From: Mesobacillus persicus
GTDB taxonomy: Bacteria > Bacillota > Bacilli > Bacillales > Cytobacillaceae
Assembly (NCBI RefSeq): GCF_900109925.1
Contig: NZ_FOBW01000018.1
Coordinates: 1-64,000 of the forward strand
DNA length: 64,000 nucleotides
Direction of reading: 5' to 3'
Shown: piece after piece, positions 2,943 through 57,706 of the stretch
How the letters are laid out: every line of letters begins with the position of its first letter
Numbering within the stretch: position 1 is the stretch's first letter
Position numbers and translations under genes: made by a program
Notes under the pieces: model-generated
Database searches by the model: none
The model's input: only the letters and a program-made list of their open reading frames with translations
What the model was told of the DNA's origin: nothing

Positions 2943-2998
2943 AGGACGGTTCTTCGCGCTTCTTTTTCGTAGAAAAAGAAGTAGAAGAACCGTCCCCA
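2943..2998. repeat. R1 interspersed hairpin repeat, copy 1 (paired arms)
   Basis: The R1 core is GGACGGTTCTNNTGCTTCC or its complement. Here two arms face each other around a short loop, both with NN = TC. The inner ends have diverged (GCGCTTC and TACTTC). The copy begins 8 nt after the stop codon of the UspA gene. Confidence 0.9.
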
Positions 2999-3005
2999 AA
3001 ACGAA

Positions 3006-3443
3006 TTATTTTACCACCAAAACCGGGCATGTTGCCTTGTGTAGAACATGGTTGCTTACGCTTCCGAGGAACATTTCCTTTAGTCCACTCAATCCTCTGC
3101 TTCCAATGACGATGAAATCTGCATCGTTCACCCTTGCAAATTCTTCAATCACTTGTGCAGGATCCCCGTCTAACACATAGGTTCTCGTTTTATTCGGCAA
3201 GGACTCCAACTTTTGTTCAATTTCTTTTCGGATTTCCTGTGCGCCTTCATGTTGAAGTTCGAGCCTAGGTAATAAAGGAGTCATCGCAAGGGAAGCAGCT
3301 GGAATCTCCGGTTGGATAACCATCAAAACATTCACTTCAATTTTTTCATCTTGGGCTGCTAGTGTCATCGCCATTTCTAAGGCTTTTTTACTGGAATTCG
3401 AATGATCATAAGGAACCACCATTCTTGAACAAATCGCTAACAT
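3006..3443 (-). CDS. universal stress protein, UspA family
   Basis: This is a single-domain, 145-residue cytoplasmic universal stress protein. The C-terminal motif GSRGLSGLKEMFLGSVS matches the G-2x-G-9x-G(S/T) nucleotide-binding signature of the ATP-binding UspA subgroup, and the core strand VVPYDHSNSS carries the conserved Asp. Four ATG codons follow GGAGG directly (ATG at 3452, 3449, 3446 and 3443). The last one, with a 9-nt spacing, is given here; 3446 is equally possible. It is a single-gene unit whose stop codon is followed 8 nt later by an R1 hairpin, which may act as its transcript end. Its stress role is known only at family level. Confidence 0.9.
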   Translation of the reverse strand: MLAICSRMVVPYDHSNSSKKALEMAMTLAAQDEKIEVNVLMVIQPEIPAASLAMTPLLPRLELQHEGAQEIRKEIEQKLESLPNKTRTYVLDGDPAQVIEEFARVNDADFIVIGSRGLSGLKEMFLGSVSNHVLHKATCPVLVVK

Positions 3444-3862
3444 CATCATCATCCTCCAAATATAAACTTTTAAACTCATTTTATTCATCTGGTCTGATCA
3501 ATGGTGGGATAAAACTACATCTGTTTGTTCGGCTTAAAACCATGTCATCGTGTTTTTCGTTGGCTTTAGGCAATGGTCTCCTTAGACATCTTCCTCCCAT
3601 TTTGAACTTCGTTATAGTAACAACCTTTACACATATATTTTAGCTCTTTTTTATCTTTAATTGACTATTTAGATAATATTGTCAATAATCCGTCACTATC
3701 ATCGTTCAAACAATCTACATAATTTCATTCTTGCTAAGTTTTAAGACTACATTTATACAAGGTAACTAAATCTATTTCTTATCAAAAAAAAGATGGTAAA
3801 TACAGGTAAAAATTGTTATAATATTGAAATGAATAAGTCCATTAAATAAGGAGTGCTCATTG
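3444..3862. other. intergenic region, no gene seen
   Basis: This 419-bp AT-rich gap lies between divergent genes. A TATAAT at 3817-3822, about 40 bp before the next start codon, is a plausible -10 for the membrane protein gene, but its -35 is poor. No coding remnant or repeat was recognised. Confidence 0.5.
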
Positions 3863-4435
3863 ATGGTAACTCTTGAAGAATTACAGTCTGATATCATAAT
3901 AGAAGCCAAAAAAGGATATCCGATTTTGTTGTCAGGCTCAATTGTATTTTTGCTCTTTACTTTTCTCCCTTTTATCCTCCCGATGGAGCTAATTCATTTA
4001 ATTTGGATCTTTGGTTTAGGTGCCATCTTTCCCCTTGGGTTATTGCTCAGTAAGCTACTTGGTGTCAACCTTCTATCCACCAAAAACCCACTAGGTACGT
4101 TAGGAGGAATCGTTGCCGGACCACAAGCTTTCTACATACCCGTCTTTATTATCGTTTATATGCACATTCCCGCGTACCTTCCCTTTACCATAGGCTTACT
4201 TGGAGGATCGCATTTCCTTCCTTACATGTGGATTTATAAAAGTAAAGCTTATCTATTCGTTACCTTAGGTGTTTGCCTATCTGCAATGATTATTGGCGGA
4301 TGGATGGTCGATTACGCGTTTACTCTTGTACCGTTAGCTATTTCGATCGTGTATGGGCTTGGCGTAGTACTAATCTTAAAAGAACTCAAAACGGAAAGAA
4401 AAGAACTCACTCCTTCCAGTCAGCTAACCAGATAA
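3863..4435 (+). CDS. uncharacterised integral membrane protein (DUF7010-like)
   Basis: This 190-residue protein has about six hydrophobic segments (approximately residues 20-40, 45-65, 85-105, 108-125, 130-150 and 152-172) joined by short polar loops, with a charged C-terminal tail. The segment LGAIFPLGLLLSKLLGVNL followed by NPLG recalls the DUF7010 membrane family, but I could not confirm this. The ATG at 3863 lies 9 nt after AAGGAG and is preferred to the adjacent TTG. No catalytic motif is visible and no neighbouring gene suggests a role. A strong terminator shared with the converging gene follows. Confidence 0.75.
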   Translation: MVTLEELQSDIIIEAKKGYPILLSGSIVFLLFTFLPFILPMELIHLIWIFGLGAIFPLGLLLSKLLGVNLLSTKNPLGTLGGIVAGPQAFYIPVFIIVYMHIPAYLPFTIGLLGGSHFLPYMWIYKSKAYLFVTLGVCLSAMIIGGWMVDYAFTLVPLAISIVYGLGVVLILKELKTERKELTPSSQLTR

Positions 4436-4440
4436 AAAAA

Positions 4441-4486
4441 GACCGCCTTCCACTAACCTATACAGGCCCAATGGAGGCGGTCTTTC
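4441..4486. terminator. bidirectional terminator
   Basis: GACCGCCTTCCA (4441-4452) pairs with TGGAGGCGGTC (4472-4482). An A-run precedes it and a T-run follows, so it can serve the membrane protein gene and the converging SEC-C gene. Confidence 0.9.
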
Positions 4487-4541
4487 CTATTCCTGCATCC
4501 CCTAACAGGATCACTACTAATCATAAAAGCTGTCCACCTAA

Positions 4542-8478: not shown

Positions 8479-9510
8479 GTGAAAAGGAAGATTACAACTA
8501 ATCGAACTACCCATTCAATTTTCTCTGATGTGGACTTTGAACCAAAATCTCCAACAGATAAAGACCCTTCTATTAATCTAGCTGAATTTGTTGAGATTAA
8601 TGGCATTGAACAGTTCCTGTACCATGCTGGGGATAAGACAGAAAATCAGGTGATTCTTCACTTACATGGTGGGCCTGGTAATGCATTCTCAAATAAAGCT
8701 TATTTACTTAAGGAATGGAATTCGTCGTTTACGATGGTTTATTGGGATCAACGCGGTGCTGGGAAAACAGCGTTAAAAAATCCTGATGCGGTACCAACAT
8801 TTGCGAACATGTTAGAAGATATCCATGAAATTATTTTATATTTAAAAAGAAAATATCACAAACAGAAGATTGGTCTATTCGCTCATTCCTGGGGCACCAT
8901 CATCGGCTCCATTTTCGCAAACCAGCATCCAGATGATGTTGAATTTTATATCGGGGTTGGTCAGGTCATCGCACCCGTTCAAAATGAAATCGTCGGCTAT
9001 CAAGAAACCCTTCGCAGATTGAAAGAAAATGGGGATACAGAAGGGCTAAAACAGCTAGAAGTGCTCGGTGACTATCCGGGGGATAAGCCAGAAGAAATGT
9101 TAACCAAAATGAGTGTCGTCCGCGAATGGCAAGGGAAGCTCGGTATGACTAAATTTGACCCACAGGAACATTTAGATCAAATCAAACAGAGTCCCTTGTT
9201 TCATCCGGATGATTTAAAAGCTCAAAACGTTAGTGCCAAATTGCTAACCGGTTTGTTTATTGAAATGTTCCATTATAGTCTATATGATTACCCGCTTACT
9301 TATGAGGTTCCCGTATATTACATCTTAGGAAAAGACGACTGGCAAGTCCCTTCAATATTAGGAATCGAATACCTAAAGCAAATCACTGCACCAGAAAAGC
9401 AACTACTCCTAATCAAGGACAGCATGCACTCCCCCATGCTCGAAAAACCAACAGAATTCCTCCACGCCCTGCGCAAGATCATTGGGGACGGTTCTCTTGC
9501 TTCCTTTTAG
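8479..9510 (+). CDS. alpha/beta hydrolase, proline iminopeptidase-like (S33)
   Basis: This 343-residue alpha/beta-hydrolase has an oxyanion motif LHLHGGPG, the S33 signature DQRGAGKT, a nucleophile elbow FAHSWGT, and an Asp (LGKDDWQVP) and His (DSMHSPM) that complete the triad. The family includes proline iminopeptidases and related esterases or lactonases; the substrate is not predictable. It begins at GTG, 8 nt after GAGG. The last residues, GDGSLASF, are encoded by an R1 repeat that supplies the stop codon. The native gene probably ended shortly before, near KIIG. A bidirectional terminator follows. Confidence 0.85.
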   Translation: MKRKITTNRTTHSIFSDVDFEPKSPTDKDPSINLAEFVEINGIEQFLYHAGDKTENQVILHLHGGPGNAFSNKAYLLKEWNSSFTMVYWDQRGAGKTALKNPDAVPTFANMLEDIHEIILYLKRKYHKQKIGLFAHSWGTIIGSIFANQHPDDVEFYIGVGQVIAPVQNEIVGYQETLRRLKENGDTEGLKQLEVLGDYPGDKPEEMLTKMSVVREWQGKLGMTKFDPQEHLDQIKQSPLFHPDDLKAQNVSAKLLTGLFIEMFHYSLYDYPLTYEVPVYYILGKDDWQVPSILGIEYLKQITAPEKQLLLIKDSMHSPMLEKPTEFLHALRKIIGDGSLASF

Positions 9511-9535
9511 CAAAGGAAGCAAAAGAACCGTCCCC
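9484..9535. repeat. R1 repeat, copy 2 (paired arms)
   Basis: Two R1 arms face each other around a short loop; NN is CT on the left and TT on the right. The left arm forms the last seven codons and the stop region of the S33 hydrolase gene. Confidence 0.92.
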
Positions 9536-13104: not shown

Positions 13105-13252
13105 ACGCTACATCCATCCTTCGATATTTTTTGAACCCGAATAGGCTCTAAAGCTAAATATAGCAGAATTATTTTTTAAAGGTTTAAAACATTTGAAATA
13201 TGAATCTAACAGCCTATAATATTTTTTATCCAGTGAATCTGAAGACCTAAAC

Positions 13253-13275
13253 AGGGACGGTTCTCCTGCTTCTTT
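13253..13275 (+). repeat. R1 repeat, copy 3 (single arm)
   Basis: This is one R1 arm with NN = CC, about 150 bp upstream of the nucleotidase start. No matching second arm lies nearby. Confidence 0.85.
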
Positions 13276-14241: not shown

Positions 14242-14294
14242 TGGGGACGGTTCTCCTGCTTCCCGATAACCAAAAAGCAGCAAGAGAACCGTCC
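14242..14294. repeat. R1 repeat, copy 4 (paired arms)
   Basis: Two R1 arms lie directly upstream of the Dph6-like ribosome binding site. NN is CC on the left and CT on the right, with a longer, imperfect loop. Confidence 0.88.
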
Positions 14295-14416
14295 ATCCTT
14301 TACGAACAATTGAATAAAATCATCAAGGCTGCATGTCCCCTGATTCTAAAGTTTGTTACCAACAATATAATAATTTGAACGCAAGTATGTAAAGAAAATA
14401 ATAGGTGGTGATTGGA

Positions 14417-15670
14417 GTGAAGCAACAAAGACCCTTTTCGTACCAGAAGGTTTTTGTTATCGGGAGTGGTTTCCTTGCCTTATCGCTTGCCTGGGCATTC
14501 TATAACGCCTATATGCCTCTAATTTTAGGAGACTTTATCGATAGTAGGGCTATTCGTGGTGCGATTATGGGGTTAGATAATCTCCTTGCTGTTCTTTTAA
14601 TCCCTGTCATTGGTGCATGGTCAGATAAAATTGATACCCGAATCGGAAACAGACTACCCTTTATAGTCATCGGTATGCCGTTAGCTGCGTTTTCTTTTAT
14701 TTTGCTCCCTTTTGCTTCCGTATCTACCTTCTGGATTCTCATATTTGTTGACATCATCTTTCTACTTGCCATGACCATCTACCGAGCACCGGTTATTGCA
14801 CTCATGCCTGACCACACTCCACCAGAGAAACGCTCAACGGCAAACGGGATCATCAATCTTATGGGTGGAATCGGTGCCATCATTGCTTTATTTGGATTAT
14901 CAACTCTATATGGAATCAACCGAACATACCCGTTTATCGTTGCAGGACTTTTGTTGCTGATTACCTTCATTTTACTCTTCTTCACAGTAGACCGAAAGCC
15001 ACCCTATGCAGAAAAAGCAAAAGATGAGTTAGGGGAAGCTTTAGCATCAAATTCGTTTTTAGCCCTATTTAGACTACTGAAAATGAAAGAATTTCGTGGA
15101 CACCTCTTCGTCTTAGTAGCTATTTTCCTGTATTTTATCGGATTTACTGGCGTAGAATCCCAATTTACAGTCTATGCGGTCGAACATTTGAACATGAAAG
15201 AAAGTACTGCTGGCTTCACGCTTGGATTTTTCAGTTTATCTTTCGTCCTGTTTGCCGTTCCAGCTGGAATTTTAGGAAGTAAATGGGGAAAAGCCCCCTC
15301 CATGCTGGTTGGATTAATCGTGCAGCCAATCATTTTTATCAGCATCCCTCTCATTCCTTTACTAGGGTCAATCGTTCCGGATATTAACCAGGTTTTACTT
15401 TTACAAGTCATGCTGTTCCTAGGTGGAATCGCTTGGGCGTTCATTAATGTTCAGGCTTATCCATTGGTGGCCGATTTAGGTGGCAAGAGCAAAATTGGCT
15501 TTTTCACAGGGCTCTATTATCTCTTCTCGATGGCCTCTGCCATCGTAGCACCAGGAATCCTCGGGCTCCTGATGGATTTGTTCACCCACTCCGCTCTCTT
15601 TTACGGTTCTGCCGTGACGTTCGTTGCAGCCTACTATTTTCTAAGAAAGGGACACCATTTGATCAAGTGA
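14417..15670 (+). CDS. MFS transporter, SLC45-like sugar/cation symporter type
   Basis: This 417-residue protein has 12 predicted membrane segments and fits the major facilitator superfamily. The loop between TM2 and TM3 contains GAWSDKIDTRIGNRLPF, the D-R-GRRRPF-like motif typical of the SLC45/GPH-type sugar transporters. A long cytoplasmic loop around residues 200-225 divides the halves. The GTG at 14417 sits 5-6 nt after AGGTGGTGA; upstream GTG codons fall inside that site. Its stop codon is followed at once by an R1 arm. No sugar gene is adjacent, so the substrate is open. Confidence 0.85.
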   Translation: MKQQRPFSYQKVFVIGSGFLALSLAWAFYNAYMPLILGDFIDSRAIRGAIMGLDNLLAVLLIPVIGAWSDKIDTRIGNRLPFIVIGMPLAAFSFILLPFASVSTFWILIFVDIIFLLAMTIYRAPVIALMPDHTPPEKRSTANGIINLMGGIGAIIALFGLSTLYGINRTYPFIVAGLLLLITFILLFFTVDRKPPYAEKAKDELGEALASNSFLALFRLLKMKEFRGHLFVLVAIFLYFIGFTGVESQFTVYAVEHLNMKESTAGFTLGFFSLSFVLFAVPAGILGSKWGKAPSMLVGLIVQPIIFISIPLIPLLGSIVPDINQVLLLQVMLFLGGIAWAFINVQAYPLVADLGGKSKIGFFTGLYYLFSMASAIVAPGILGLLMDLFTHSALFYGSAVTFVAAYYFLRKGHHLIK

Positions 15671-15702
15671 GGAAGCAAAGGGACGGTTCTCCTGCTTCCT
15701 CG
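15669..15702 (+). repeat. R1 repeat, copy 5 (single arm with short inverted flank)
   Basis: Directly after the MFS stop codon, GAGGAAGC is followed by a full R1 arm (NN = CC) that ends in GCTTCCTC. It looks like a shortened hairpin. Confidence 0.88.
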
Positions 15703-20645: not shown

Positions 20646-20756
20646 ATAAAAACGTAGAATAATCTAGTGAAAAACAGGTAGCATGGGCGCATCACTGCCT
20701 TCATAAGAAGACCCTCGTTTTACCTTCCCAACTCCCGAAGAAGATAATACGTGTAA

Positions 20757-20908
20757 AAATGGCAGGTCTCCTGACTTATGCTTCATCCTACTCTAAGCCC
20801 TTCCCGTCCAAAGACAGTGGATTTGCTTATTTAGTCAGCATTTACAGTTGCGGGTACAGTTCTGGATTTTCACCAGATTCCCTATTAGGTCTTTTCAGAC
20901 ACCATTAT
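20757..20908 (-). ncRNA. cobalamin (B12) riboswitch aptamer
   Basis: On the minus strand the region contains the conserved AdoCbl riboswitch blocks in order: GGTG near the 5' end, AATAGGGAATCTGGTGAAAA, the core ACTGTACCCGCAACTGT, and the 3' block AGTCAGGAGACCTGCC. It lies between a strong promoter and a terminator hairpin, upstream of thioesterase-nrdA-nrdB-flavodoxin. By analogy with actinobacterial nrdAB operons, cobalamin would turn off this B12-independent reductase. Confidence 0.95.
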
Positions 20909-20971
20909 TATCGGTAGTTATCTATATTTAGTATTAAAAATTAAAAACCAATACCATATATTGTATTAACA

Positions 20972-21120: not shown

Positions 21121-21146
21121 GGTTAGGAAGCAGGAGAACCGTCCCC
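21121..21146 (-). repeat. R1 repeat, copy 6 (single arm)
   Basis: One R1 arm (NN = CC) in the forward sense of the kinase gene encodes its last residues GDGSPAS and the TAA stop. Confidence 0.92.
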
Positions 21147-24100
21147 AACTGGTAATCTAATCTGTGAGGTGGTTCCTTCGTTTTCTTTGCTATGGAAGGT
21201 GAGGGATCCGTTATGTTGTCTGATGATCCTAAAGCATAGCATTAAACCTAAGCCGGTCCCTTTTTCCTTGTTACTATAGAAAGGTTCTCCTAGTCTTTTT
21301 AAACGTTCTTGACTGATTCCAATTCCGTTATCGACGACATTAATGAGTAATTGACCTTTGTCGGTTTGAACGGTAATCTTTATTAACCCTTTTCGGTTTG
21401 GATCCATAGCCTCAATACTGTTTTTACATAGATTGATTAACACTTGTTTGATTTGATTTGCGTCACACATAATCGACGGGATTTCTGAGTTTATATCAAG
21501 GAAAAGTTCGACACCATTAAGAGAGGCTTCCGATTTTATTAAGGTTACTACCTCTTGCAAAAGAATGGGAATGTTCACTTGATTCAAGTGAATTTCTTGC
21601 GGTTTTGCAATCGAGAGAAATTCCTTAATAATACCTTCAATCCGATTGAATTCTGAAAGAATGATGTCAAAGTATTCTTCTTTTATCATTCCTTGTTGAA
21701 ACAATTGAATAAACCCTTTAATCGCGGTAATCGGATTTCGGATTTCATGTGCAACCCCAGCAGCCAATTCGCCCACTAAAGAGAGTTTCTCAGAATTCGA
21801 TAATAGCTCTTCTGCTCTTCTTTTCTCGGTAATGTCCTTCCCGACCGCCATGATATGTTCCACTTTTCCATTTTCACCAATGACTGGCGTTGCGGTACAT
21901 TCAAATAATCTCCATTCACCATTTGCATGCAATAGGCGAACTTCCACTTTGGCTGTAGAAGCCTTTTTAATGACATCTGCAAATTGCCTCGTGACGATGG
22001 AAGTATCTTCAGGATGAACGAGGTTTAATGTGCTCGAGCCTTCAAAGTATTCAGGAGCATAACCTAGGACAGTTTTATGGGAGGGGGAAGCATAAACGCC
22101 TTGACCTTGTTTATCGAATAAAATAACTAAGTCACTCATATTTTCTGCGATTAAACGATATTTATTTTCACTTTCAGCTAATGCTTTTTCCGTCTGTTTT
22201 CGTTCTGTAATATCAATACACGAAGCAATGACCTCGACTACCTTTCCCCCTCGTTTAATCGGGCTTAAGGCTGCAAAATAGAGGATACCATTCAACTCTT
22301 CTTCATAGGTTACGTGCTCTTCTCCATTCCAGGCTCTTTCATAATAAACCAGCTTTTCTTTCGCTGTCTCCTCAGGAAGGAACTCGCTTAACTGTTTGCC
22401 AACCACTTGGCTAGGAACAAGACCAATCCGATACAGTAATTCACCATCACATAATGTATGGATAAATTGATCATTCACTTTTTTGTATTTATAAATCATC
22501 CCTTGTTGCAGGCGAACCGTTTCATCTAATTCCTTACGAGCTAATCGGAGTAACTCTTCCGCCCGCATTCGTTCATTTACATCTTGAGAGAGACCAAAAT
22601 CCCTCACCACATCTTGAATTTCGAGCAAAGCTTCTTCTAATTCATTCGCTTGTATCGGTTTTGAAAAAAAGAAGCCTTGGCCCTCGTCACAAAGATGCTG
22701 CTGTAGAAAAATGAGTTGTTCTTTCGTCTGAATTCCTTCGGCCACAACATTCAAATTAAGGTTATGAGCCATTGAAATAATGGTTTTCACAATCGTTTTA
22801 TCTTCCTCGTTCGTTTGCATTCTTTCGACAAATGACCGGTCAATTTTTAACGTATCCACCGGGAACTTCTGTAAGAAATTCAAAGAACTATAGCCTGTTC
22901 CAAAATCATCAATACTAATCCGCACACCCAGACTTTTAAGATTTTCTAACGCCGTAAAAGTACGTTCGTTATCACCTGCCATATTCTCAGAAATTTCCAA
23001 TTCTAAATACTGAGGTTCTAACTTGGTTTCTAAAAGGATCCGGGCAACCGTTTCATCCAAATTGGATTGAGTAAATTGCCTTGGTGATAGATTGACTGAT
23101 ACCGTTGTGGTAAACCCTTTTTGTTGCCACCTTTTATTTTGCTGACAAGCCGTATAGAGGACCCACTCCCCAATTGGTATAATTAATCCTGTCTCTTCCG
23201 CAATCGTAATAAAAGTTCCAGGTGATACCAACCCTAGCTCAGGATGTTCCCAACGGATTAATGCTTCTACCCCTACGATTTTTCCACTATGTAAACTCAC
23301 TTTCGGTTGATAGTGAAGGATTAACTCATCCTTGCGAATCGCCTGATGAAGGTCCATCCCTAATTTCAAAGGGTTGAAATTTGGGTCCTCTTCATTCAGA
23401 GAGTAAAATTTAAAATGATTTTTCCCTGCCTTTTTTGCTTGGTACATCGCAAAATCGGCATGTTTAATTAGCGATTCAACCGTATCTCCATCCTCAGGAA
23501 ACAAGCTGATGCCAATGCTAACGGAAGTGAAGATATCATAACTTTTAATCATAAAAGGGCTGGCAAGTGCTTCGAGGATTCGCTTACACACTGTTGAAGC
23601 TACCTGTCGATCCGCATCTGTTAAAATGACAATGAACTCATCTCCGTACTCTCTGAAAATGCTATCCATATCCTCTAAGGAAGATTTCACCCTTTGCGCT
23701 ACTTCTTTTAAAAGCTGATCTCCTGTATCGTAACCAAGTGTATTATTAATCACTTTAAACCGGTCAAGGTCCATAAATAATACAGCCATCTTTTGTTTCT
23801 TTTCACGCGCCGTCATTAATTCACTTGATAAACTCGCTTTTAACTGGTTATCAATCAGGAAAGGGGTTATTTTATCGTTCAACTCCCAATTTTCGGTGTC
23901 ATCTTTTGGAGGGTTGGTCTCTGAAACTAGCGAATCAAACGGGGCTTCTTCATATGCAGAGAGCCCTTCCTCAAACTTTTTAAGTTGTTTTTGCAATCTG
24001 AATGTCTCGTTTTTATGTTCGGTGATGTCGTAAACAGAACCAGTTATCCCGACCACTTCACCTGCATTATCCAAAATCGGATGGGCGTGATTTTGTAACC

Positions 24101-24413
24101 ACTTTGTCTCCCCATTTGATTGAACAATTCTGTATTCTAGAGTTGTTACAACCCCTAATTCATTCTGATTCATTGAGTTCACAAACATCAACTGATCCTC
24201 AGAATGCACTAATTCAAACCATAGATTAGGAAACTCTTTAAACTCTTCTTGTGTATGTCCATAAATAGCGGCAATTCCTTTTGAAACCCATACTATATCG
24301 TTCCGTAGATCTCTATACCAAATCATCAATTCAGGGGTATCCAATAGATTTTGCACGATTTCATTTGAGCCTTTATTTTCATCAAAAAGGGTAGCAATAG
24401 ACTTCAAGTTCAT
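21123..24413 (-). CDS. composite PAS-GGDEF-EAL-PAS-PAS-histidine kinase
   Basis: This 1096-residue soluble protein joins a c-di-GMP module to a sensor kinase. Domains: PAS (about 20-135), GGDEF (195-345), EAL (350-600), PAS (635-740), PAS (745-865), HisKA (875-940), HATPase (980-1088). The GGDEF motif is degenerate (YGDEF, 256-260), so cyclase activity is doubtful. The EAL domain looks active: E383-A-L, VNLSPRQF, LEISEN, IDDFGTGYSS, KIDRSFV and VVAEG are all kept. The kinase keeps H889 in VAHEIRNPITAIKGF, the N box, DNGIGIS and GTGLGL, and resembles KinA-type sporulation kinases. No receiver domain or adjacent regulator is present. The tail GDGSPAS comes from an R1 repeat. GGDEF-EAL proteins and KinA-like kinases are normally separate. 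Confidence 0.93.
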   Translation of the reverse strand: MNLKSIATLFDENKGSNEIVQNLLDTPELMIWYRDLRNDIVWVSKGIAAIYGHTQEEFKEFPNLWFELVHSEDQLMFVNSMNQNELGVVTTLEYRIVQSNGETKWLQNHAHPILDNAGEVVGITGSVYDITEHKNETFRLQKQLKKFEEGLSAYEEAPFDSLVSETNPPKDDTENWELNDKITPFLIDNQLKASLSSELMTAREKKQKMAVLFMDLDRFKVINNTLGYDTGDQLLKEVAQRVKSSLEDMDSIFREYGDEFIVILTDADRQVASTVCKRILEALASPFMIKSYDIFTSVSIGISLFPEDGDTVESLIKHADFAMYQAKKAGKNHFKFYSLNEEDPNFNPLKLGMDLHQAIRKDELILHYQPKVSLHSGKIVGVEALIRWEHPELGLVSPGTFITIAEETGLIIPIGEWVLYTACQQNKRWQQKGFTTTVSVNLSPRQFTQSNLDETVARILLETKLEPQYLELEISENMAGDNERTFTALENLKSLGVRISIDDFGTGYSSLNFLQKFPVDTLKIDRSFVERMQTNEEDKTIVKTIISMAHNLNLNVVAEGIQTKEQLIFLQQHLCDEGQGFFFSKPIQANELEEALLEIQDVVRDFGLSQDVNERMRAEELLRLARKELDETVRLQQGMIYKYKKVNDQFIHTLCDGELLYRIGLVPSQVVGKQLSEFLPEETAKEKLVYYERAWNGEEHVTYEEELNGILYFAALSPIKRGGKVVEVIASCIDITERKQTEKALAESENKYRLIAENMSDLVILFDKQGQGVYASPSHKTVLGYAPEYFEGSSTLNLVHPEDTSIVTRQFADVIKKASTAKVEVRLLHANGEWRLFECTATPVIGENGKVEHIMAVGKDITEKRRAEELLSNSEKLSLVGELAAGVAHEIRNPITAIKGFIQLFQQGMIKEEYFDIILSEFNRIEGIIKEFLSIAKPQEIHLNQVNIPILLQEVVTLIKSEASLNGVELFLDINSEIPSIMCDANQIKQVLINLCKNSIEAMDPNRKGLIKITVQTDKGQLLINVVDNGIGISQERLKRLGEPFYSNKEKGTGLGLMLCFRIIRQHNGSLTFHSKENEGTTSQIRLPVGDGSPAS

Positions 24414-35265: not shown

Positions 35266-35359
35266 GAGGGACGGTTCTATTGCTTCCATCCCCCCACTTA
35301 AGTTATGTAATCAGTGATAATAATAACATGGAAGCAGAAGAACCGTCCCCTTGCTACCA
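35266..35359. repeat. R1 repeat, copy 12 (paired arms with a 42-bp interval)
   Basis: A left arm with NN = AT and an opposed right arm with NN = TC are separated by AT-rich DNA, upstream of the small membrane protein gene. The two arms differ at NN, so they are not simple copies of each other. Confidence 0.85.
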
Positions 35360-36904: not shown

Positions 36905-38578
36905 ATGTTTACAAGACATTTTGAGTATTGGCCAAAGCGGTTGCCGAAATCGTTACCTATTCCTGAAACAACGATTTACGACAATTTAGAGACAACTACA
37001 AAACGGTATCCGAATAAAACAGCGATCGTCTTTTATGGCACGGAAATCACTTATAAACAGCTCGATACCGAAGTAACGAAGCTCGCTGGGTACTTGCAGA
37101 AGGAACTTGGTGTTTCCAAAGGGGATCGAGTTGTACTCTACATGCAAAATTCTCCTCAGTACATCATTAGCTTTTACGCGATTTTACGAGCGGATGCTGT
37201 CGTGGTCCCGATTAATCCGATGAATGTAAAAGACGAAGTCGCGTTTTATTTATCGGATTGTGACGCAAAAGTTGCACTGGCGGGTCAAGAGTTAATCGCT
37301 GAAATTGAACCATGTCTTGAGAATACACCACTTACCAACATTGTCGTTGCCGCCTATTCGGACTATGCGCAAAAGGAAGTGGATTATTCGGTCCCTCCTG
37401 CGGTTGCAGCTGCTAAAGAAACCTTTGCCTCAACAAGCATCATTGACTGGAATGATGCGTTATCAGCAGGCGTCGAGCCGAGCCCAAGCCAAGCGAAGTC
37501 CGACGATTTATGTTGTTTGCCATATACATCCGGAACAACAGGGAAACCAAAAGGCTGCATGCATACACATAAAACCTTACAGGCTACGCTTTTAGGCGGA
37601 ATTGTTTGGGCACATTCTTCCCCTGCTGATATTGGCTTGTCCACATTACCGCTATATCATGTAACCGGTCTACAGCATAACATGAATGGACCAATTTACT
37701 TAGGAGCTACCATGGTGGTGATGACCCGCTGGGATCGCGATGTGGCCTTAACCTTAATCGAACGTTATGGGGTAACAAGGTGGACGAATATTTCGACGAT
37801 GGTGGTTGATTTCTTGGCGAATCCTAAATTAAAAAAGGAGGCCATTTCATCTCTCAAAATGATTGGCGGCGGCGGTGCTCCCCTTCCTGAAGCTGTTGGC
37901 GAGAAGCTTTTTGATCTAACAGGACTCCGGTATGTCGAAGGATATGGATTAACTGAAACGATGTCACAAATCCACCAAAACCCGCTTGAGCGAGCAAAGC
38001 TTCAGTGCTTAGGGATGCCCCAATTCGATGTCGATGCAAGAATCGTCGACCCGGTTACCTTAAAAGAGCTAGGTCCAAATGAAGAAGGCGAAATCATTTG
38101 CACTGGAGAACAAGTTTTCAAAGGATATTGGAACCGACCTGATGAAACCAGAGGTGCCTTTGTTACCTTAGATGGAAAGGAATTTTTCAGAACAGGCGAC
38201 ATTGCCCGCTATGATGTGGAAGGTTATTTCTTCTTAGTCGATCGCGTCAAGCGAATGATCAATGCCTCTGGCTTCAAAGTATGGCCAGCCGAAGTCGAAA
38301 TGACCTTGTATAAACATCCATCCGTTCAGAATGCCTGTGTTATCGGGGTACCGGATGAAAGACGCGGAGAAACTGTAAAAGCATTTATCGTCCTAAACGA
38401 CCAAGGCAAAGGAACATCCGAAGAGGAAATTATAGCTTGGTCAAAAGAACATATGGCAGCTTACAAAATCCCAAGAATCGTCCAATTCCTAGACGCACTC
38501 CCAGTATCAGGAAGCGGCAAAATCCTCTGGCGAAAGCTCCAAGAACAAGGGGACGGTTCTTCTGCTTCCTTGACTTAA
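36905..38578 (+). CDS. acyl-CoA synthetase (AMP-forming), fatty-acid-CoA ligase type
   Basis: This 557-residue ANL-superfamily enzyme activates a carboxylic acid to its CoA thioester through an acyl-adenylate. The P-loop YTSGTTGKPKGCMHTH is near residue 210, the A5 motif YGLTETMSQ near 345, the hinge YFFLVDRVKRMINASGFKVWP near 440, and the A10 lysine in PVSGSGKILWRKL near residue 540. Chain-length specificity is not predictable. The ATG follows GGTGGTG. The final residues GDGSSASLT are encoded by an R1 arm, so the native C-terminus was probably near LQEQ. A cre box overlaps its -35. The phosphotriesterase-like gene upstream is probably co-regulated. Confidence 0.9.
   Translation: MFTRHFEYWPKRLPKSLPIPETTIYDNLETTTKRYPNKTAIVFYGTEITYKQLDTEVTKLAGYLQKELGVSKGDRVVLYMQNSPQYIISFYAILRADAVVVPINPMNVKDEVAFYLSDCDAKVALAGQELIAEIEPCLENTPLTNIVVAAYSDYAQKEVDYSVPPAVAAAKETFASTSIIDWNDALSAGVEPSPSQAKSDDLCCLPYTSGTTGKPKGCMHTHKTLQATLLGGIVWAHSSPADIGLSTLPLYHVTGLQHNMNGPIYLGATMVVMTRWDRDVALTLIERYGVTRWTNISTMVVDFLANPKLKKEAISSLKMIGGGGAPLPEAVGEKLFDLTGLRYVEGYGLTETMSQIHQNPLERAKLQCLGMPQFDVDARIVDPVTLKELGPNEEGEIICTGEQVFKGYWNRPDETRGAFVTLDGKEFFRTGDIARYDVEGYFFLVDRVKRMINASGFKVWPAEVEMTLYKHPSVQNACVIGVPDERRGETVKAFIVLNDQGKGTSEEEIIAWSKEHMAAYKIPRIVQFLDALPVSGSGKILWRKLQEQGDGSSASLT
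38548..38572 (+). repeat. R1 repeat, copy 13 (single arm)
   Basis: One R1 arm with NN = TC forms the 3' end of the acyl-CoA ligase reading frame (GDGSSAS), with the stop codon six bases further on. Confidence 0.92.
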
Positions 38579-40049: not shown

Positions 40050-40146
40050 ACAACCGCCTCCCTCGAATGAACTAGTTATCTATACCTACCATATAACATA
40101 GTATAAAAGTTTCATAGCAGGTATTCATAATTTTCGCAAATCAAGC

Positions 40147-40171
40147 AAGGGGACGGTTCTTATGCTTCCTA
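40147..40171 (+). repeat. R1 repeat, copy 15 (single arm)
   Basis: One R1 arm with NN = TA. Its end CCTAAAG provides, on the minus strand, the TAG stop of the nucleotidyltransferase remnant. Confidence 0.9.
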
Positions 40172-43774: not shown

Positions 43775-44240
43775 CTTTCATCAACCTCTTGATATTTTAT
43801 TTTTACTATTCGGAATAATTAGACTGCAACAACCGGAAACGTTCATTTAGTTATTATTATCGCTTTCTCTAATCGAAGGAACAATCGCAACAACTGTACA
43901 TCTGATTAGATTTACTCTTCCTCCTCGAACAAAAAATAGGGGGAAATTGATTGTATTGCTGAACTAATTTTACAACCTGCACGGACGTAATACTACTTAT
44001 TTATTTTTATATTTGATAAAAAAATCAGTAACTCCAAAAGCCCTCATCATGCTATAATTATTGGCCTAAAAAAGCAGCACGGGGACGGTTCTGTTGCTTC
44101 CTTTTAGGAAGCAACAGAACCGTCCCCGTGCTTTTATCAATCAGGGTGAATTATAGGATAGATTAATTATGATATTATTGAGAAACGTTTAGATAAAAAA
44201 TCCGCTCTTAAAACGTGATATTTTCCGCCTCCATTCCAGC
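43775..44240. other. intergenic region with one R1 palindrome and a doubtful tiny frame
   Basis: Apart from the perfect R1 palindrome at 44076-44132, a 37-codon minus-strand frame (43982-43869, GTG start) reads VQVVKLVQQYNQFPPIFC and ends CCDCSFD. It looks protein-like and is cysteine-rich, but it has no ribosome binding site. It could be a tiny gene or a remnant. Confidence 0.35.
44076..44132. repeat. R1 repeat, copy 16 (perfect palindrome)
   Basis: Two identical 26-bp arms (NN = GT), extended outward by AGCAC/GTGCT, surround a 5-nt loop TTTTA. There is no mismatch. It is the best-preserved copy in the window and probably the most recent. Confidence 0.97.
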
Positions 44241-46196: not shown

Positions 46197-46832
46197 TTGT
46201 TTGTACGCAATGTTTACGTCGAAAAACACAAGGTAACCTGTTGCCCCAGTACATTTACAGTGAAACAAGCTCATGAGTTGATAAAGAAAACGGGGTACCG
46301 TTGTATACCGGTCATTGACTCCGAAACAAATGAATATAAGGGCCAAATTTACAAAGTAGATTTGCTTGAACATTTATATGAGAACGGTGGCCACCTCGAA
46401 GACTCTATCATAAAGATAACCAAAGAGGAAGATTCCTTTGTCCCAAAAGATGCCTCCTTAAGTCTTGCTTTATTAATGATTGATCGCCTCCCGTTCCTTG
46501 CTGTAACCGATGAGTTTAAAGAATTCCAAGGCATCATCACTCACTCGGTATTAATGGATTTATTCCGCGATGGTTTTGGGATGAAAACAGGAGGATACTG
46601 CTTTACAGTTGCTATCTGGGACCACACAGGCGCCTTCTTAAAGTTATTAAAACTATTAAAATCCTATAATATCGAAGGCGCCCACACCTTTGGCAATGGA
46701 AATGAACTGTTTCGCAGACTCACTTTTACCATTTCAGAAGAAAACGAATACGTCATCGAAAAATTAAAAGCAAAAATCATAAAATCCGGCTTCCGTGTCC
46801 TTCATATTGAGAAGATTGAAAAAGCCCTCTAA
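46197..46832 (+). CDS. CbpA-like CBS-domain protein, copy 1 (candidate c-di-AMP sensor)
   Basis: This 211-residue soluble protein has two CBS motifs (residues 8-60 and 75-130) and an ACT-like C-terminal part (TGGYCFTVAIWDHTGAFLKLLKLLKS, later FTISEENEYVIEKLK). The arrangement matches Listeria/Bacillus CbpA, which binds cyclic di-AMP in its CBS domains. The start is TTG 46197 after AAGGAGGGAAGAAA; an upstream ATG at 46122 is in frame but lacks a ribosome binding site. A second, closely similar gene lies 0.7 kb downstream. C-di-AMP binding is inferred from the family. Confidence 0.8.
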   Translation: MFVRNVYVEKHKVTCCPSTFTVKQAHELIKKTGYRCIPVIDSETNEYKGQIYKVDLLEHLYENGGHLEDSIIKITKEEDSFVPKDASLSLALLMIDRLPFLAVTDEFKEFQGIITHSVLMDLFRDGFGMKTGGYCFTVAIWDHTGAFLKLLKLLKSYNIEGAHTFGNGNELFRRLTFTISEENEYVIEKLKAKIIKSGFRVLHIEKIEKAL

Positions 46833-47543: not shown

Positions 47544-48203
47544 ATGTTTGTACGTAATGTTTATATTGAGAAACACAAAGTAACTTGCTGTCCTAGTACA
47601 TTAACTGCAATCAAAGCTCTAGAACTTTTAAAAGAAACCAATTATCGCTGCATCCCAGTTGTTGACACCGAAACGAATGAATACAAAGGCCAAGTTTACA
47701 AAGTGGATTTGTTGGAGTATTTATTTGAAAACGGTGGGAAGCCAGAAGACTCCGTCATGAATGTAGTTGATGAGGTAGATTCTTTTCTACATAAGGATAG
47801 CTCCTTAAGCCTTGCCTTGTTAACCATTGATCGCCTTCCTTTCCTTGCAGTAACAGGTGAAAACAGAGAATTTCAGGGAATCATCACCCACTCGGTCCTC
47901 ATGGATTTATTCCGCGATGGGTTTGGTATGAAAACGGGTGGATATTGCTTCACCGTCGCTATCTATGAACAAACAGGTGCCCTTCTAAAATTAATGAAGC
48001 TTCTTAAATCGTTTAATATTGAAGGCGCCCATACTTTTGGAAACGGAAACGAACTCTTCCGCCGCCTTACTTTTACTATTTCAGAAGAAAACGAAGATGT
48101 CATCGACAAATTAAAAGAGAAAATCATTAAAGCTGGGTTCCGTGTCTTACATATTGAAAGGATTGAAACAAACAAAAATATCGCAAATGCTTTTCGTGAA
48201 TAA
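47544..48203 (+). CDS. CbpA-like CBS-domain protein, copy 2 (candidate c-di-AMP sensor)
   Basis: This 219-residue protein is collinear with and clearly similar to copy 1 over its whole length. They share the KHKVTCCPST start, the NGNELFRRLTFTISEENE segment and the FRDGFGMKTGGYCFTVAI core. It differs mainly in the CBS2 linker (DEVDSFLHKDSS against KEEDSFVPKDAS) and in a longer C-terminal tail, NKNIANAFRE. The ATG follows GGGAGG. The two genes form a tandem duplication interrupted by 0.7 kb of decayed DNA. Ligand binding is inferred from the CbpA family. Confidence 0.82.
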   Translation: MFVRNVYIEKHKVTCCPSTLTAIKALELLKETNYRCIPVVDTETNEYKGQVYKVDLLEYLFENGGKPEDSVMNVVDEVDSFLHKDSSLSLALLTIDRLPFLAVTGENREFQGIITHSVLMDLFRDGFGMKTGGYCFTVAIYEQTGALLKLMKLLKSFNIEGAHTFGNGNELFRRLTFTISEENEDVIDKLKEKIIKAGFRVLHIERIETNKNIANAFRE

Positions 48204-48321: not shown

Positions 48322-48459
48322 ATGGATGAACCATGCTTTTATTGCAACGAAGAAATGGAAAATAAATATCATGGGGTGTTCATCATGCAAAATGAACATG
48401 TAGAGAAACCCCTTTGCGAGGAATGCTATAAAGATTGGTTAGATGGCATAAAAGAATAG
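48322..48459 (+). CDS. 45-residue zinc-knuckle protein
   Basis: This tiny gene encodes 45 residues beginning MDEPCFYCNEEMENK, with a second cysteine pair in PLCEECYKDW about 27 residues later. That is a two-knuckle CxxC...CxxC zinc-binding pattern. The ribosome binding site AGAGGGAGGGTG is excellent and the codon use is normal, so the gene is probably real. Its Shine-Dalgarno lies in the 3' arm of a GC-rich hairpin. The stop TAG overlaps an R1 arm. The role is unknown; small zinc proteins of this kind often bind nucleic acid or another protein. Confidence 0.75.
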   Translation: MDEPCFYCNEEMENKYHGVFIMQNEHVEKPLCEECYKDWLDGIKE

Positions 48460-48530
48460 CATGGGGACGGTTCTACTGCTTCCTACTTTGGTGATTATTA
48501 TGGAGGTAAGTAGAAGATACGTCCCTATAC
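48458..48530. repeat. R1 repeat, copy 17 (paired arms, right arm decayed)
   Basis: The left arm (NN = AC) starts at the stop codon of the 45-residue gene. The right arm GTAGAAGATACGTCCCT has several changes. Confidence 0.8.
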
Positions 48531-52887: not shown

Positions 52888-52962
52888 AGCACAGGGACGG
52901 TTCTTCTACTTCTTAAGATGGTGCAATATGAGCGGAAGCAAGAGAACCGTCCCTACGCTTGC
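52888..52962. repeat. R1 repeat, copy 18 (paired arms)
   Basis: The left arm has NN = TC and decayed ends (TACTTCT). The right arm has NN = CT. They are opposed across about 19 bp, just upstream of the 44-residue gene and past the treR end. Confidence 0.8.
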
Positions 52963-55435: not shown

Positions 55436-55612
55436 ATTGACACCTACCTATTCTTCTTTTATGTAACAATGAAAATAAAGAATCTTTATTTTCGGTTCGG
55501 GAACTCTCTAATCGCGAACACTCGCTTTTCCCATTCAAATTCTTTTATCCTGGGTTTGTTTCAACTAGAAAGTTCGCTCTTTTCCCGTCCGGACTCTTTC
55601 CTTGGGGTTTTG
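55436..55612. other. degenerate upstream part of the tre intergenic repeat region
   Basis: This part of the gap between treP and treA contains diverged versions of the 52-bp unit (for example 55561-55612, with CTAGAAAG, TTTCCCGTCCGGACTCTTTCC). No gene was seen. Confidence 0.5.
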
Positions 55613-55768
55613 GCAATTAGAAGCTTTCTATCTTACCGTTCTAGCTCTTTCCCTCAGGTTCCGGGCAAGTAGAAGCTCTCTATCTTACCGTTCTGGCTCT
55701 TTCCCTCAGGTTTCGGGCAAATAGAAACTCTCTATCTTACCGTTCTGGCTCTTTCCCTCGGGTTTCGG
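55613..55768. repeat. tandem repeat, three 52-bp units
   Basis: Units start at 55613, 55665 and 55717, exactly 52 bp apart, and a fourth begins at 55769 but is cut short. Each reads GCAANTAGAANCT, then CTATCTTACCGTTCT, then CTCTTTCCCTC, ending in GG. Identity between units is over 90%. 52 is not a multiple of 3, so it is not coding. It sits inside the tre operon. Confidence 0.95.
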
Positions 55769-55939
55769 GCAAAAGAGGTCCCTTTTTTACATGCAATGAT
55801 CTTTCCCCATTTACTTGCTCAAATAAATGCCTACTTAGACGAAACCCTAATAGTATTAGCCTGCACAAAAAAACTCACAACTACAAATTGAAATTCTAAA
55901 AAAGGAAAGAGGAACAAATAATTGTTCCTCCTTGTGTTT

Positions 55940-57379
55940 TTATGCACGCTTTTTCTTAAAAGCAATGTTTCCTACATTTAGTTTGTTGAACACAATTGTT
56001 AGAACGAATGGAACGGCAATGGCAACGATCATCGCAAGAGCGAATGTTCCCATAAATTGCGGTTGGATGGAAAGTATTCCTGGTAACCCACCGACACCGA
56101 TGGAGTTCGCCATTACGCCGCTACCTACTGAAATCACAGCGGCAACTAATGAACCCAACATCGCAGCTAAGAATGGGAAGCCGTATTTCAAGTTGATACC
56201 GAACATCGCTGGCTCTGTTACCCCAAGGTAACAAGAAATTGCTGCTGGAATCGATACTTGCTTTTCCGCTTCATTTTTACGATTAATATAGATCATCGCT
56301 AGAACCGCAGAACCTTGAGCGATATTTGATAATGCAATCATCGGCCATAGGTTTGTTCCACCAAGCTCACTCATAAGCTGCAAGTCGATGGCATTTGTCA
56401 TATGGTGTAAACCAGTAATAACAAGTGGTGCATAGATAAACCCAAATACTGCGGCAAACAACCAACCGAAAGCTGAAGTTAGGCCAGAGTATACGATATT
56501 TGAAATCCATGAACCAATTTCCCAACCGATAGGACCAAGAATCGTATGAGCTAGTAAAACAGCTGGTACTAATGATAAAAATGGAACAACAATCATTGAA
56601 ATCGCATTCGGAATCACTTTACGCAACTGAATTTCTAAATAAGAGAACACTAAACCTGCTAAAATTGCCGGAATAACTTGTGCCTGATATCCAATCATTT
56701 GAATTTGAGCAAAACCAAAATCCCAATATGGAATATCTTCGGCACCAGCGCCAGCCACACCATAAGCATTTAAGAGCTGAGGCGATACAAGGGTAATACC
56801 AAGGACAATCCCGAGAATTTGAGAAGCACCCATTTTTCTAGCAACCGCCCAGGTAATCCCTACAGGCAAGAAGTGGAAGATCGCTTCCCCAATTAACCAA
56901 AGGAACGCATGGACCCCTGCCCAAAACTGAGATGACTCGACAATGGTCATTGTCCCATCTTCAAGCAACTTGATATCACCGATAACATTTCTAAAACCAA
57001 GGATTAGACCACCGACAACAAGTGCCGGAATAAGCGGTGTGAATATATCCGCTAAATGAGAAATCATTCTTTGCAATAGATTCATATTTTGTTTCGCAGC
57101 AACCTTTGCCTCATCTTTTGAGGTGTCACTTACACCCGCAATTTTAATAAATTCATTATAGAAGGACGGAACTTCATTTCCAACTACAACCTGAAATTGA
57201 CCGGCTTGGGTAAAAGTCCCCTTTACCACATCGATTTTCTCAATCTCTTCAACATTTGCTTTATTCGGATCGTTTAACACAAATCTCATTCTTGTTACAC
57301 AATGCGTAACCACTGAGATGTTATCGCTTCCCCCGATATGCTTTAAAAGCTCTTCTGCTGAGTTTTTATATTTACTCAT
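55940..57379 (-). CDS. treP: trehalose-specific PTS enzyme IIBC
   Basis: This 479-residue PTS permease takes up trehalose and phosphorylates it at the phosphate-carrier cysteine. The IIB domain (1-85) contains C27 in VVTHCVTRMRF. The IIC domain (from about 105) has about 10 membrane helices, with IYAPLVITGLHHM and the GVTEPAMFGINLKYGFPF signature. No IIA domain is attached; Bacillus TreP uses the glucose IIA. ATG 57379 follows GGTGAGGAGGAG; an upstream extension to 57406 lies before the ribosome binding site. It is the first gene of the operon, with a TreR operator in the promoter spacer and a cre box. Confidence 0.94.
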   Translation of the reverse strand: MSKYKNSAEELLKHIGGSDNISVVTHCVTRMRFVLNDPNKANVEEIEKIDVVKGTFTQAGQFQVVVGNEVPSFYNEFIKIAGVSDTSKDEAKVAAKQNMNLLQRMISHLADIFTPLIPALVVGGLILGFRNVIGDIKLLEDGTMTIVESSQFWAGVHAFLWLIGEAIFHFLPVGITWAVARKMGASQILGIVLGITLVSPQLLNAYGVAGAGAEDIPYWDFGFAQIQMIGYQAQVIPAILAGLVFSYLEIQLRKVIPNAISMIVVPFLSLVPAVLLAHTILGPIGWEIGSWISNIVYSGLTSAFGWLFAAVFGFIYAPLVITGLHHMTNAIDLQLMSELGGTNLWPMIALSNIAQGSAVLAMIYINRKNEAEKQVSIPAAISCYLGVTEPAMFGINLKYGFPFLAAMLGSLVAAVISVGSGVMANSIGVGGLPGILSIQPQFMGTFALAMIVAIAVPFVLTIVFNKLNVGNIAFKKKRA

Positions 57380-57431
57380 TCTTTTCTCCTCCTCACCTTT
57401 TGGCAAGACTATTTATCTTTTTTCTACTCAA

Positions 57432-57520
57432 CCTGTATACAAAAGTCCTATTTGCGTTTTCGCATTAACTTGTATATACATGTTTTGTTGACGCTTTCAT
57501 CATAACTTGTATATACAAAT
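57432..57520 (-). promoter_or_regulatory. TreR operator sites
   Basis: The palindromic TTGTATATACAA (57507-57518) lies between -35 and -10 of treP. A second site with one change, TTGTATATACAT (57470-57481), and a weaker CTGTATACAAAA (57433-57444) lie downstream. The spacing suits cooperative TreR binding. Confidence 0.8.
57486..57500 (-). promoter_or_regulatory. cre box (CcpA) of treP
   Basis: TGTTGACGCTTTCAT matches the reversed cre consensus WGNNWNCGNTTNCAW at all but one position. It lies just downstream of the -10, where CcpA would repress. Confidence 0.65.
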
Positions 57521-57527
57521 CCGTCAA
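57499..57527 (-). promoter_or_regulatory. treP promoter
   Basis: On the minus strand TTGACG (57527-57522) and TATGAT (57504-57499) are 17 bp apart, with the TreR palindrome filling the spacer. Confidence 0.8.
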
Positions 57528-57656
57528 CATATAAAATAAACAAAGAAAATTCAAATTTTTTTCAGCCCGTTTCCAAAGACAATCACAGAAATACCACAAA
57601 GATTTCCCAGGCAAGCGCATGAAGTGACAAGATACCCAACTCTTTCGACAAAAAAA

Positions 57657-57706
57657 CAAGGGGACGGTTCTCCTGCTTCCGCAGAAGAACCGTCCCCTTG
57701 CTTCCT
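57657..57706. repeat. R1 repeat, copy 19 (paired arms)
   Basis: Two opposed R1 arms overlap slightly at the centre (left NN = CC, right NN = TC), extended outward by CAAG and CTTG. The outer end TAGGAAGC holds the stop codon of the acyl-CoA dehydrogenase gene. Confidence 0.92.

Follow-up and report, generated by a model that had tools for sequence, protein, structure and literature searches.

Short palindromic repeats linked to a transposase have been described for several groups of bacteria. In Escherichia coli, repetitive extragenic palindromic (REP) sequences and the bacterial interspersed mosaic elements (BIMEs) are imperfect palindromes, the stem of which is interrupted by a two-base mismatch, and the cognate enzyme, TnpA-REP, is of the HUH/Y1 type. 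A 5' GTAG tag is needed, the mismatch is conserved, and the unpaired state of this two-base bulge, not its sequence, seems to be crucial (PMC8266576). In Pseudomonas fluorescens, extragenic inverted REP doublets that form a hairpin (REPINs) are linked to a REP-associated tyrosine transposase (RAYT), and single arms occur too; the most common spacings are 71 and 110 bp, and the doublets are reported to be placed at random in extragenic space (Bertels and Rainey, 2011, PMC3116915). Pseudomonas REPs are of the GTAG type (PMC3733652). The TIRtrons with their TIRYT enzymes (Di Nocera, 2013, PMC3733652) and TnpA-Y1 subclass 2.1 (Quentin, 2018, PMC6006769) have flanking terminal inverted repeats (TIRs) without GTAG, which can form dimers. 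TIR families are moderately abundant (PMC3733652), the motif GGGGWSAS is given for some or most TIRs, not for all (PMC3733652, PMC6006769), and no REP-like sequences were found near subclass 2.1 genes (PMC6006769). The present analysis concerns R1, a family of hairpin repeats dispersed over a stretch of 64,000 nucleotides of Mesobacillus persicus (positions 1 to 64,000 of contig NZ_FOBW01000018.1, here C37). This whole stretch is called the window; the genome to which it belongs, G000, comprises 4,643,403 bases on 40 contigs.

R1 resembles each of these systems in part. It shares with the E. coli REPs the imperfect palindrome, the two-base mismatch in the stem and the HUH/Y1 enzyme, but it has no tag, and its variable dinucleotide (NN) is free, save for a pyrimidine preference at the first base (N1). 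With the REPINs of P. fluorescens it has in common the extragenic inverted doublets, the hairpin, the link to a RAYT and the single arms, whereas it lacks GTAG and differs by its mostly short loops, its clusters around the RAYT gene and a variable dinucleotide that is matched between the arms. R1 appears close to the TIRtron type. The R1 segment GGGGACGG, of which the first base is G or A, agrees with GGGGWSAS at seven of eight positions and differs at position 7. Like the TIRYT and subclass 2.1 enzymes, the RAYTs of R1 have a longer C-terminus. It may be of the helix-turn-helix kind, with matches below the curated cut-off in three of four RAYT proteins scanned (best E value 0.0057) and none in the protein of M. 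persicus. In contrast to the moderately abundant TIR families, R1 is present in about 200 copies, its formation of REPINs is clear, and its RAYT resembles a subclass reported without REPs. REP clusters centred on RAYT genes and REPs near stop codons are already published. REPs were found close behind stop codons, sometimes supplying the stop (PMC3733652), and were reported to gather no farther than about 200 kb from rayt genes in three marine gammaproteobacteria and Thauera (Nunvar, 2010, PMC2817692). The clusters of R1 are alike, but they belong to Bacillaceae and to one further family of the same order, and neighbouring copies are more alike than distant ones.

R1 is probably a REP/REPIN family of non-autonomous mobile hairpins, the movement of which depends on a RAYT encoded in the same genome. 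That a genuine repeat family had been recognized in the original prediction is evident from the counts. With up to three mismatches, the core GGACGGTTCTNNTGCTTCC occurs 24 times in the window, compared to a mean of 0.05 and a maximum of 1 in 100 dinucleotide-preserving shuffles, and with up to two mismatches it occurs 201 times in the whole genome, compared to three matches for the reversed control pattern. The 24 matches group into 17 elements, seven with two arms and ten with one arm; two of the latter, at 2977 and 57662, have damaged partner arms (near 2944 and 57678) that are missed by the core pattern. A sample of arms was taken from 1,161,241 fetched bases, about a quarter of the genome, picked partly for listed R1 matches. 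It comprises 165 arms in 116 elements, namely 49 two-arm elements (dimers, arms within 100 nt) and 67 single arms. The gene calls stem from a home-made hexamer method, the uncertainty of which extends to all gene-based numbers; by these calls, 102 of the 116 elements are entirely intergenic and 107 have a non-coding midpoint. Folded with RNA parameters, the regions at 9486 and 44083 reach -52.5 and -58.8 kcal/mol, respectively.

Two genes of the genome exceed the Pfam cut-off for Y1_Tnp, and a protein search added one broken fragment. The first gene, on contig C26 (40660-41442), encodes a RAYT of 260-261 amino acids, which scores 78.3 bits with the NCBIfam model NF047646 (REP_Tyr_transpos), slightly below the cut-off of 80, and matches the structure 4er8 of E. 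coli TnpA-REP with an E value of 4.7e-5. H60-x-H62 and Y119 (within RYIHQNP) are invariant in 16 of 16 homologues, and we take them to be the catalytic HUH histidines and the catalytic tyrosine. The only named homologues stem from Neobacillus drentensis and Bacillus coahuilensis, and a comparison of the locus with plasmid records yielded no match. At this locus (L032), one R1 arm (-) lies 22 nt ahead of the start codon and two further arms, (+) and (-), follow the gene 180 nt past its stop; all three carry TT at NN. The second Y1 gene, on contig C12, is above the cut-off for REP_Tyr_transpos (87 bits), and R1 is absent from its 3.3-kb locus. When loci with homologues of at least about 50% identity were inspected, a core arm was present less than 600 bp from the RAYT gene in nine of 11 (in L064 as a one-base variant, the misses being L075 and L088); for five distant homologues (37-43% identity), no arm was found within 600 bp by that pattern. 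In G026, five R1-like arms are arranged in tandem with a 50-nt period immediately behind the RAYT gene (L061, 1289-1489).

R1 copy number follows the presence of RAYT, although not absolutely. In 151 genomes of the family, with RAYT presence defined by an E value of at most 1e-45 (at least about 49% identity), ten or more exact cores were found in 10 of 30 genomes with RAYT and in 5 of 121 without it (Fisher P=3.6e-5). The copy-number polymorphism asked for in the original prediction was compared at the level of species. Within the genus, the numbers of exact cores, species by species, are 166 (the species of G000), 52, 25, 23, 0, 0, and 0. The original prediction had suggested mobile hairpins of the REP/RAYT type at gene ends and named a Y1 transposase gene flanked by the same arms as a feature to look for; such a gene is present in the genome, and both the flanking arms and the association with copy number speak in favor of it.

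The repeat unit is likely an imperfect palindrome of 29 nt, GGAAGCA-WR-GGGACGGTTCT-NN-TGCTTCC, in which NN would lie opposite WR. In profiles of the 67 single arms and the 98 dimer arms, GGGACGGTTCT and TGCTTCC are nearly invariant, preceded by a weaker GGAAGCA and then W and R, the latter being a purine in all 165 arms. The information content is 0.55-0.61 bits at N1 and 0.43 bits at N2, compared to at least 1.18 bits at every other core position (at least 1.59 bits with the exception of the last C of single arms), and thus NN is far more variable than its neighbours. The lower stem appears to be supported by lineage-specific sequences that are still able to pair. Near the RAYT genes of relatives the apical core is retained, and the stem reads TGAAACA/TGTTTCA (G044, all seven units) or GAAACA/TGTTTC (G006, all three units); further stems are TGAGGCA/TGCCTCA (G004) and GGATGCA/TGCATCC (G040). 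The idea that single arms are ends of a longer conserved element was rejected because the sequences downstream of them are non-homologous, with the exception of three loci on contig C19 and of arms that overlap or face one another. A strong partner arm at a distance of 110-750 nt is faced by 14 of the 67 single arms, 12 of them on C26 and two on C35.

Some related sequences were encountered as well. At five places GGGACGGTTCT is fused to a conserved stretch resembling TTAAAGCGGACAATCGGAAGTTTTGC and a terminator-like hairpin (L033 83 and 1089, L097 308 and 16907, L105 15671). Three of these places are at contig ends, the two in L033 (1-1400) gave no match near the gathering score of any Rfam family, and the fusions may represent a larger repeat that starts with the R1 core. 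Six arms in the fetched stretches have GGGACGGACCT in place of GGGACGGTTCT. A hairpin with the arms GGGACGTACCC at 85868 and 85895 of C19 (in L045) is possibly a second REP-like family.

In the proposed mechanism, the lower stem GGAAGCA/TGCTTCC would close on a 2x2 internal loop (WR against NN) beneath the invariant apical sequence, and two units facing each other would form the long hairpin, the REPIN, as the form that is copied. RAYT would recognize the apical core in single-stranded DNA. NN would be free to vary because its bases need not be read, would drift mostly by transitions, and would be inherited by the copies so that it marks lineages. Copies would build up behind stop codons because insertion is least harmful there, and a directional insertion step would be conceivable because single arms at stop codons nearly always have the sense orientation.

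The behavior of NN is consistent with this mechanism. NN is identical in 30 of the 49 dimers, compared to 10.3±2.7 after shuffling of the partners (maximum 21 in 10,000 shuffles), and matched pairs were seen for nine NN types. The loops of 35 of the 49 dimers are not longer than 10 nt. Core substitutions at other positions of the same dimers are unmatched in 22 cases and matched in four. Because NN is matched while other substitutions mostly are not, the NN variation probably predates insertion and is transmitted in matched form between the arms, and most of the remaining differences resemble decay that came later. A pyrimidine occupies N1 in 150 of 167 units of G000, 64 of 70 of G040, and 88 of 96 of G061, and transitions connect the NN types that are common within one genome (TC, CT, CC, and TT in G000; CA, CG, TA, and TG in G040). 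As a model, NN can be viewed as an internal-loop position that would not be read by the enzyme.

The elements of the window are as follows.
2944-2996: arm at 2977-2995 (-) with a damaged partner from 2944 (+); the core is 9 nt from the stop codon 3006-3008 of a gene on the - strand
9485-9534: two-arm element (REPIN), NN CT/TT, loop of 10 nt; overlaps the stop codon 9508-9510
13245-13273 (+): single arm, NN CC; the nearest called stop is 282 nt away
14244-14295: two-arm element, NN CC/CT, loop of 12 nt
15671-15699 (+): full 29-nt unit (GGAAGCA..TGCTTCC), NN CC; immediately behind the stop codon TGA 15668-15670
21126-21154 (-): single arm, NN CC; within the 3' end of the gene 21123-24413, 3' edge abutting the stop
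25898-25926 (-): single arm, NN CC; 5' flank overlaps the stop codon 25925-25927
30945-31045: two-arm element, NN TC/TC, loop of 61 nt
32184-32212 (+): single arm, NN TT; its 5' part provides the stop codon TAG 32191-32193
34537-34586: two-arm element, NN TA/TA, loop of 10 nt
35268-35349: two-arm element, NN AT/TC, loop of 42 nt
38541-38569 (+): single arm, NN TC; within the 3' end of the gene 36905-38578, the stop following 6 nt on
40141-40169 (+): single arm, NN TA
44076-44132: two-arm element, NN GT/GT; perfect 27-nt inverted repeat with arms 3 nt apart
48455-48483 (+): single arm, NN AC; a weak partner-like sequence directly downstream
52894-52953: two-arm element, NN TC/CT, loop of 20 nt
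57652-57706: arm at 57662-57680 (NN CC) with a truncated partner (NN TC) that reaches the stop codon 57705-57707 of a gene on the - strand

All eight NN types that had been read from the window (CC, TC, CT, TT, TA, AT, AC, and GT) were recovered, and the pairs named as matched (44083 GT/GT, 34538 TA/TA, 30946 TC/TC) and as mismatched (9486 CT/TT, 35269 AT/TC, 57662 CC/TC) were correct. The same prediction listed eleven stop codons at R1 loci. Eight of them held up (3006, 9510, 15670, 21123, 25925, 32193, 38578, and 57705), while 34974 is about 290 nt off the nearest element (35268) and no called gene end exists at 40169 or 48459.

The window also contains features other than R1. A cobalamin riboswitch at 20744-20921 (-; 116 bits) is the sole listed Rfam match above the gathering score. 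An intergenic 52-nt unit is repeated three times in tandem at 55597-55772 (copies 83-85% alike), adjacent duplicated genes at 46197-46832 and 47544-48203 share about 77% DNA identity, and about 40 nt at around 32312-32360 match many places in G001 (about 88-98%) and several in G003 (79-94%), apparently as an unrelated interspersed repeat.

The association with stop codons extends beyond the window. Within it, the core is at most 8 nt from a called stop in 5 of the 17 elements and at most 9 nt in 7; element 57662, which reaches its stop via the truncated partner arm, is the eighth. Among the 116 elements of G000, 34 have a stop at a distance of up to 8 nt and 49 have one at up to 20 nt, compared to 11.3±3.1 and 16.1±3.7 for random intergenic placement, while none is within 8 nt of a start codon (11.5 expected) and six are within 20 nt (16.3 expected). 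The same count for 121 elements from parts of G061, G040, and G004 gave 27 (11.6±3.5) and 57 (17.1±4.0) at stops, and none within 20 nt of a start. Random placement relative to stop codons is ruled out by the roughly threefold excess in the fetched part of G000. Single arms at stops have a preferred direction. In G000, 19 point with the 5' edge toward the stop and one with the 3' edge, namely the truncated dimer at 57662 (distances -38 to +24); a narrower count gave 16 to 0. In G061, G040, and G004, 24 are sense and none is antisense, so that 43 of 44 are sense in the four genomes together. The core is 6-10 nt past the stop in 17 of these 24 arms, and therefore the 29-nt unit begins near the stop codon. 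Five of the 19 sense arms of G000 sit within the end of an open reading frame (ORF), and because a sense arm at that place keeps all frames open for most NN, this could bias the count of 19 to 1.

The sense bias could reflect directional insertion, or else an easier loss of the gene-distal than of the gene-proximal arm of a dimer. Directional insertion would produce single arms that are sense-oriented and nearly flush with the stop. It is a rather speculative thought that single arms are inserted directionally behind stops in a step coupled to transcription or translation, e.g., by use of a displaced strand, and that the unread bases are a heritable barcode of local spread from the RAYT. When the 5' edges of all arms were inspected for a target motif resembling a stop codon, no clear one was found. 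Sense stops upstream of the arms reached a peak of 0.11 in G000, 0.13 in G061, 0.11 in G040, and 0.47 in G004 (n=15 arms); the antisense stop controls peaked upstream at 0.10, 0.13, 0.17, and 0.20, respectively, and downstream at 0.22 in G000. With a crude detector, a terminator-like structure was found inside or over 11 of 56 stop-proximal elements, beyond 12, and not at all for 33; most copies thus lack the hairpin and T run that an intrinsic terminator would have, and on the basis of this detector such a role of R1 was set aside. Of 28 arms with the 3' edge toward a stop no more than 400 nt away, 18 were separated from it by a terminator-like structure according to the same crude detector.

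R1 elements are not evenly distributed over the chromosomes. In the fetched stretches, copies are densest around the RAYT gene of C26, where 51 arms were found at 13-88 kb, with RAYT at 41 kb, and none by pattern in the 70 kb beyond. For six further genomes, distances to RAYT were counted among the matches listed (100 of 131, 97 of 133, 100 of 103, 26 of 37, 6 of 6, and 8 of 8 arms), for which search patterns and mismatch limits were not uniform. Among these matches, 30 of 70 elements in G061, 16 of 75 in G040, 13 of 84 in G004 (which has one of the distant RAYT homologues), 13 of 26 in G011, and 3 of 4 in G017 lie within 50 kb of RAYT, and such numbers of neighbours are reached at just 0.8-3.8% of the chromosome points in these five genomes. 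Elements less than 5 kb apart are also more alike; of the two measures applied to G000 and G061, one was significant in each genome: for the inner sequence of dimers, P is 0.003 in G000 and 0.095 in G061, and for NN it is 0.057 in G000 and 0.002 in G061. Taken together, the RAYT-centred clusters and the likeness of near copies favor local copying.

Second clusters were seen in two genomes. That of G040 at 405-578 kb (RAYT at 529 kb) and that of G061 at 664-701 kb (RAYT at 583 kb) mirror the respective RAYT cluster on the other chromosome arm, with a similar distance to dnaA; a mirror cluster was looked for in G004, and none was found. In six genomes, the matches to genes from a 20-kb part of the mirror cluster of G061 are dispersed, and the single contig C26 holds reciprocal best matches both of the G040 RAYT stretch (two genes including RAYT) and of the G040 mirror stretches (three genes). 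Therefore, rearrangement around the origin is the simpler view. An association of R1 with rearrangement breakpoints was not significant, the counts for broken adjacencies being 3 of 5 compared to 2 of 11 in the comparison with G003 (P=0.24) and 3 of 5 compared to 2 of 9 in that with G001 (P=0.27).

Several other explanations have to be weighed. NN might be a guide or target-specific dinucleotide that pairs with the target or is copied from it, as in IS200/IS605, which would suit its hypervariability, its inheritance in matched form and the guide logic known for related enzymes (PMC8266576). However, a test for mutual information between NN and 30 flanking positions (15 per side) of the 67 single arms gave a null result, the left arms of dimers yielded only three weak hits in 60 tests, at +12/+14 and thus inside the element, eight NN types are mixed on C26, the contig of the RAYT, and a matched NN forms an inverted repeat, whereas a target duplication would leave a direct one. 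The proposal that NN is target- or family-specific, contained in the original prediction, is not supported by these data, and a guide function is highly improbable. The match between the arms could also have arisen by hairpin-templated repair that homogenizes them, and it is indeed strongest in dimers with short loops (22 of 28 for loops of 0-5 nt compared to 8 of 21 for longer ones); but the other substitutions of the same dimers stayed largely unmatched, which makes repair an unlikely source.

About equally doubtful is that R1 is an immobile, conserved RNA element, e.g., a 3'-end hairpin, a terminator or a translation-linked structure, which is held by selection at gene ends. The excess at stops and the sense orientation of the single arms there would agree with it, and the crude detector found separate terminator-like structures after 12 of the 56 genes with an element at the stop compared to 352 of 880 genes without one. 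In addition, ribosome stalling has been reported for E. coli REPs located up to 15 nt from a stop codon (PMC12306157). Such an element is difficult to reconcile with 166 exact cores in the species of G000 and none in three congeners, with the association of the cores with RAYT and their peak around it in most genomes examined, and with a distance of over 50 nt between 59 of the 116 elements and the nearest called stop; moreover, the R1 elements of the window did not reach the gathering score of any Rfam family. A stronger competitor concerns the regional clusters, which might reflect permissive accessory DNA and not local copying from the RAYT. G040 has clusters without a RAYT hit at 0.41-0.58 and 2.52-2.67 Mb, G061 has one at 0.66-0.70 Mb, although the RAYT search did not span the whole of G061, and in the stretches examined only 30 of 66 genes of C37 have orthologues in G003 and likewise 30 of 66 in G001. 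Because clusters exist without RAYT and much of C37 is unmatched in the stretches of the relatives, permissive DNA may contribute. On the other hand, the RAYT gene is within a dense block in G000 and in five of the six genomes with listed positions, near copies resemble each other, and REPs accumulate near rayt in four proteobacteria (Nunvar, 2010, PMC2817692). Permissive DNA as the explanation of the clusters is quite possible, but short of probable.

The view of R1 as a RAYT-dependent mobile family also has to cope with a number of observations that weigh against it. G005, G018, G099, and G107 hold 11-52 copies without a RAYT at the threshold used, and G091, G132, G151, G153, G157, and G160 have a RAYT, the last two only partly, and zero exact cores. 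In G026, none of six listed elements is within 50 kb, or even 100 kb, of RAYT (3.74 Mb), and one core with one mismatch adjoins the gene. The evidence for the lower stem is uneven. The TGAGGCA and GGATGCA stems are single or few examples chosen for pairing, the 5' half is weakly conserved in G000 (pairing 0.29-0.59 per position in 167 units), the two halves fit poorly in most units of G040 and hardly in the five units of G012, and pairing in the pooled 366 distinct units is only 0.59 compared to 0.55 after shuffling, yet above all 500 shuffles. Pairing between NN and WR is not avoided (31 compared to 34.1 expected, and 65 compared to 69.3), and a required mismatch is therefore not supported. 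A GTAG or CGTC tag was not found upstream of the core in 165 arms, and CGTC occurs in R1 solely within the core, on the reverse strand. A clean empty site was not found at the two loci compared with G003. At 14244 both flanks align and the DNA between them is unrelated; at 15671, the aligned end of the orthologous gene in G003 (C17) carries GGAAGCAAGTGACAGTTACTTGCTTCC, which has the same outer stem GGAAGCA/TGCTTCC and another apical sequence. A core with up to one mismatch was not found in G003. Movement of R1 itself was not seen.

A prior report of the R1 family in Bacillaceae was not found in the open-access literature, and among the listed matches for the string GGGACGGTTC no related paper was recognized by title or opening of the abstract. 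If the proposed reading is true, R1 and its RAYT would constitute a high-copy REPIN system for Bacillales with an identifiable cognate transposase, in genomes that are near to tractable laboratory hosts. It offers testable regularities, namely a matched dinucleotide that would not be read, single arms in sense orientation at stop codons, and neighbours that are alike, through which the insertion sites of RAYTs, their possible action in the vicinity of the RAYT gene itself, and the way in which REPs arrive at stop codons could be studied.

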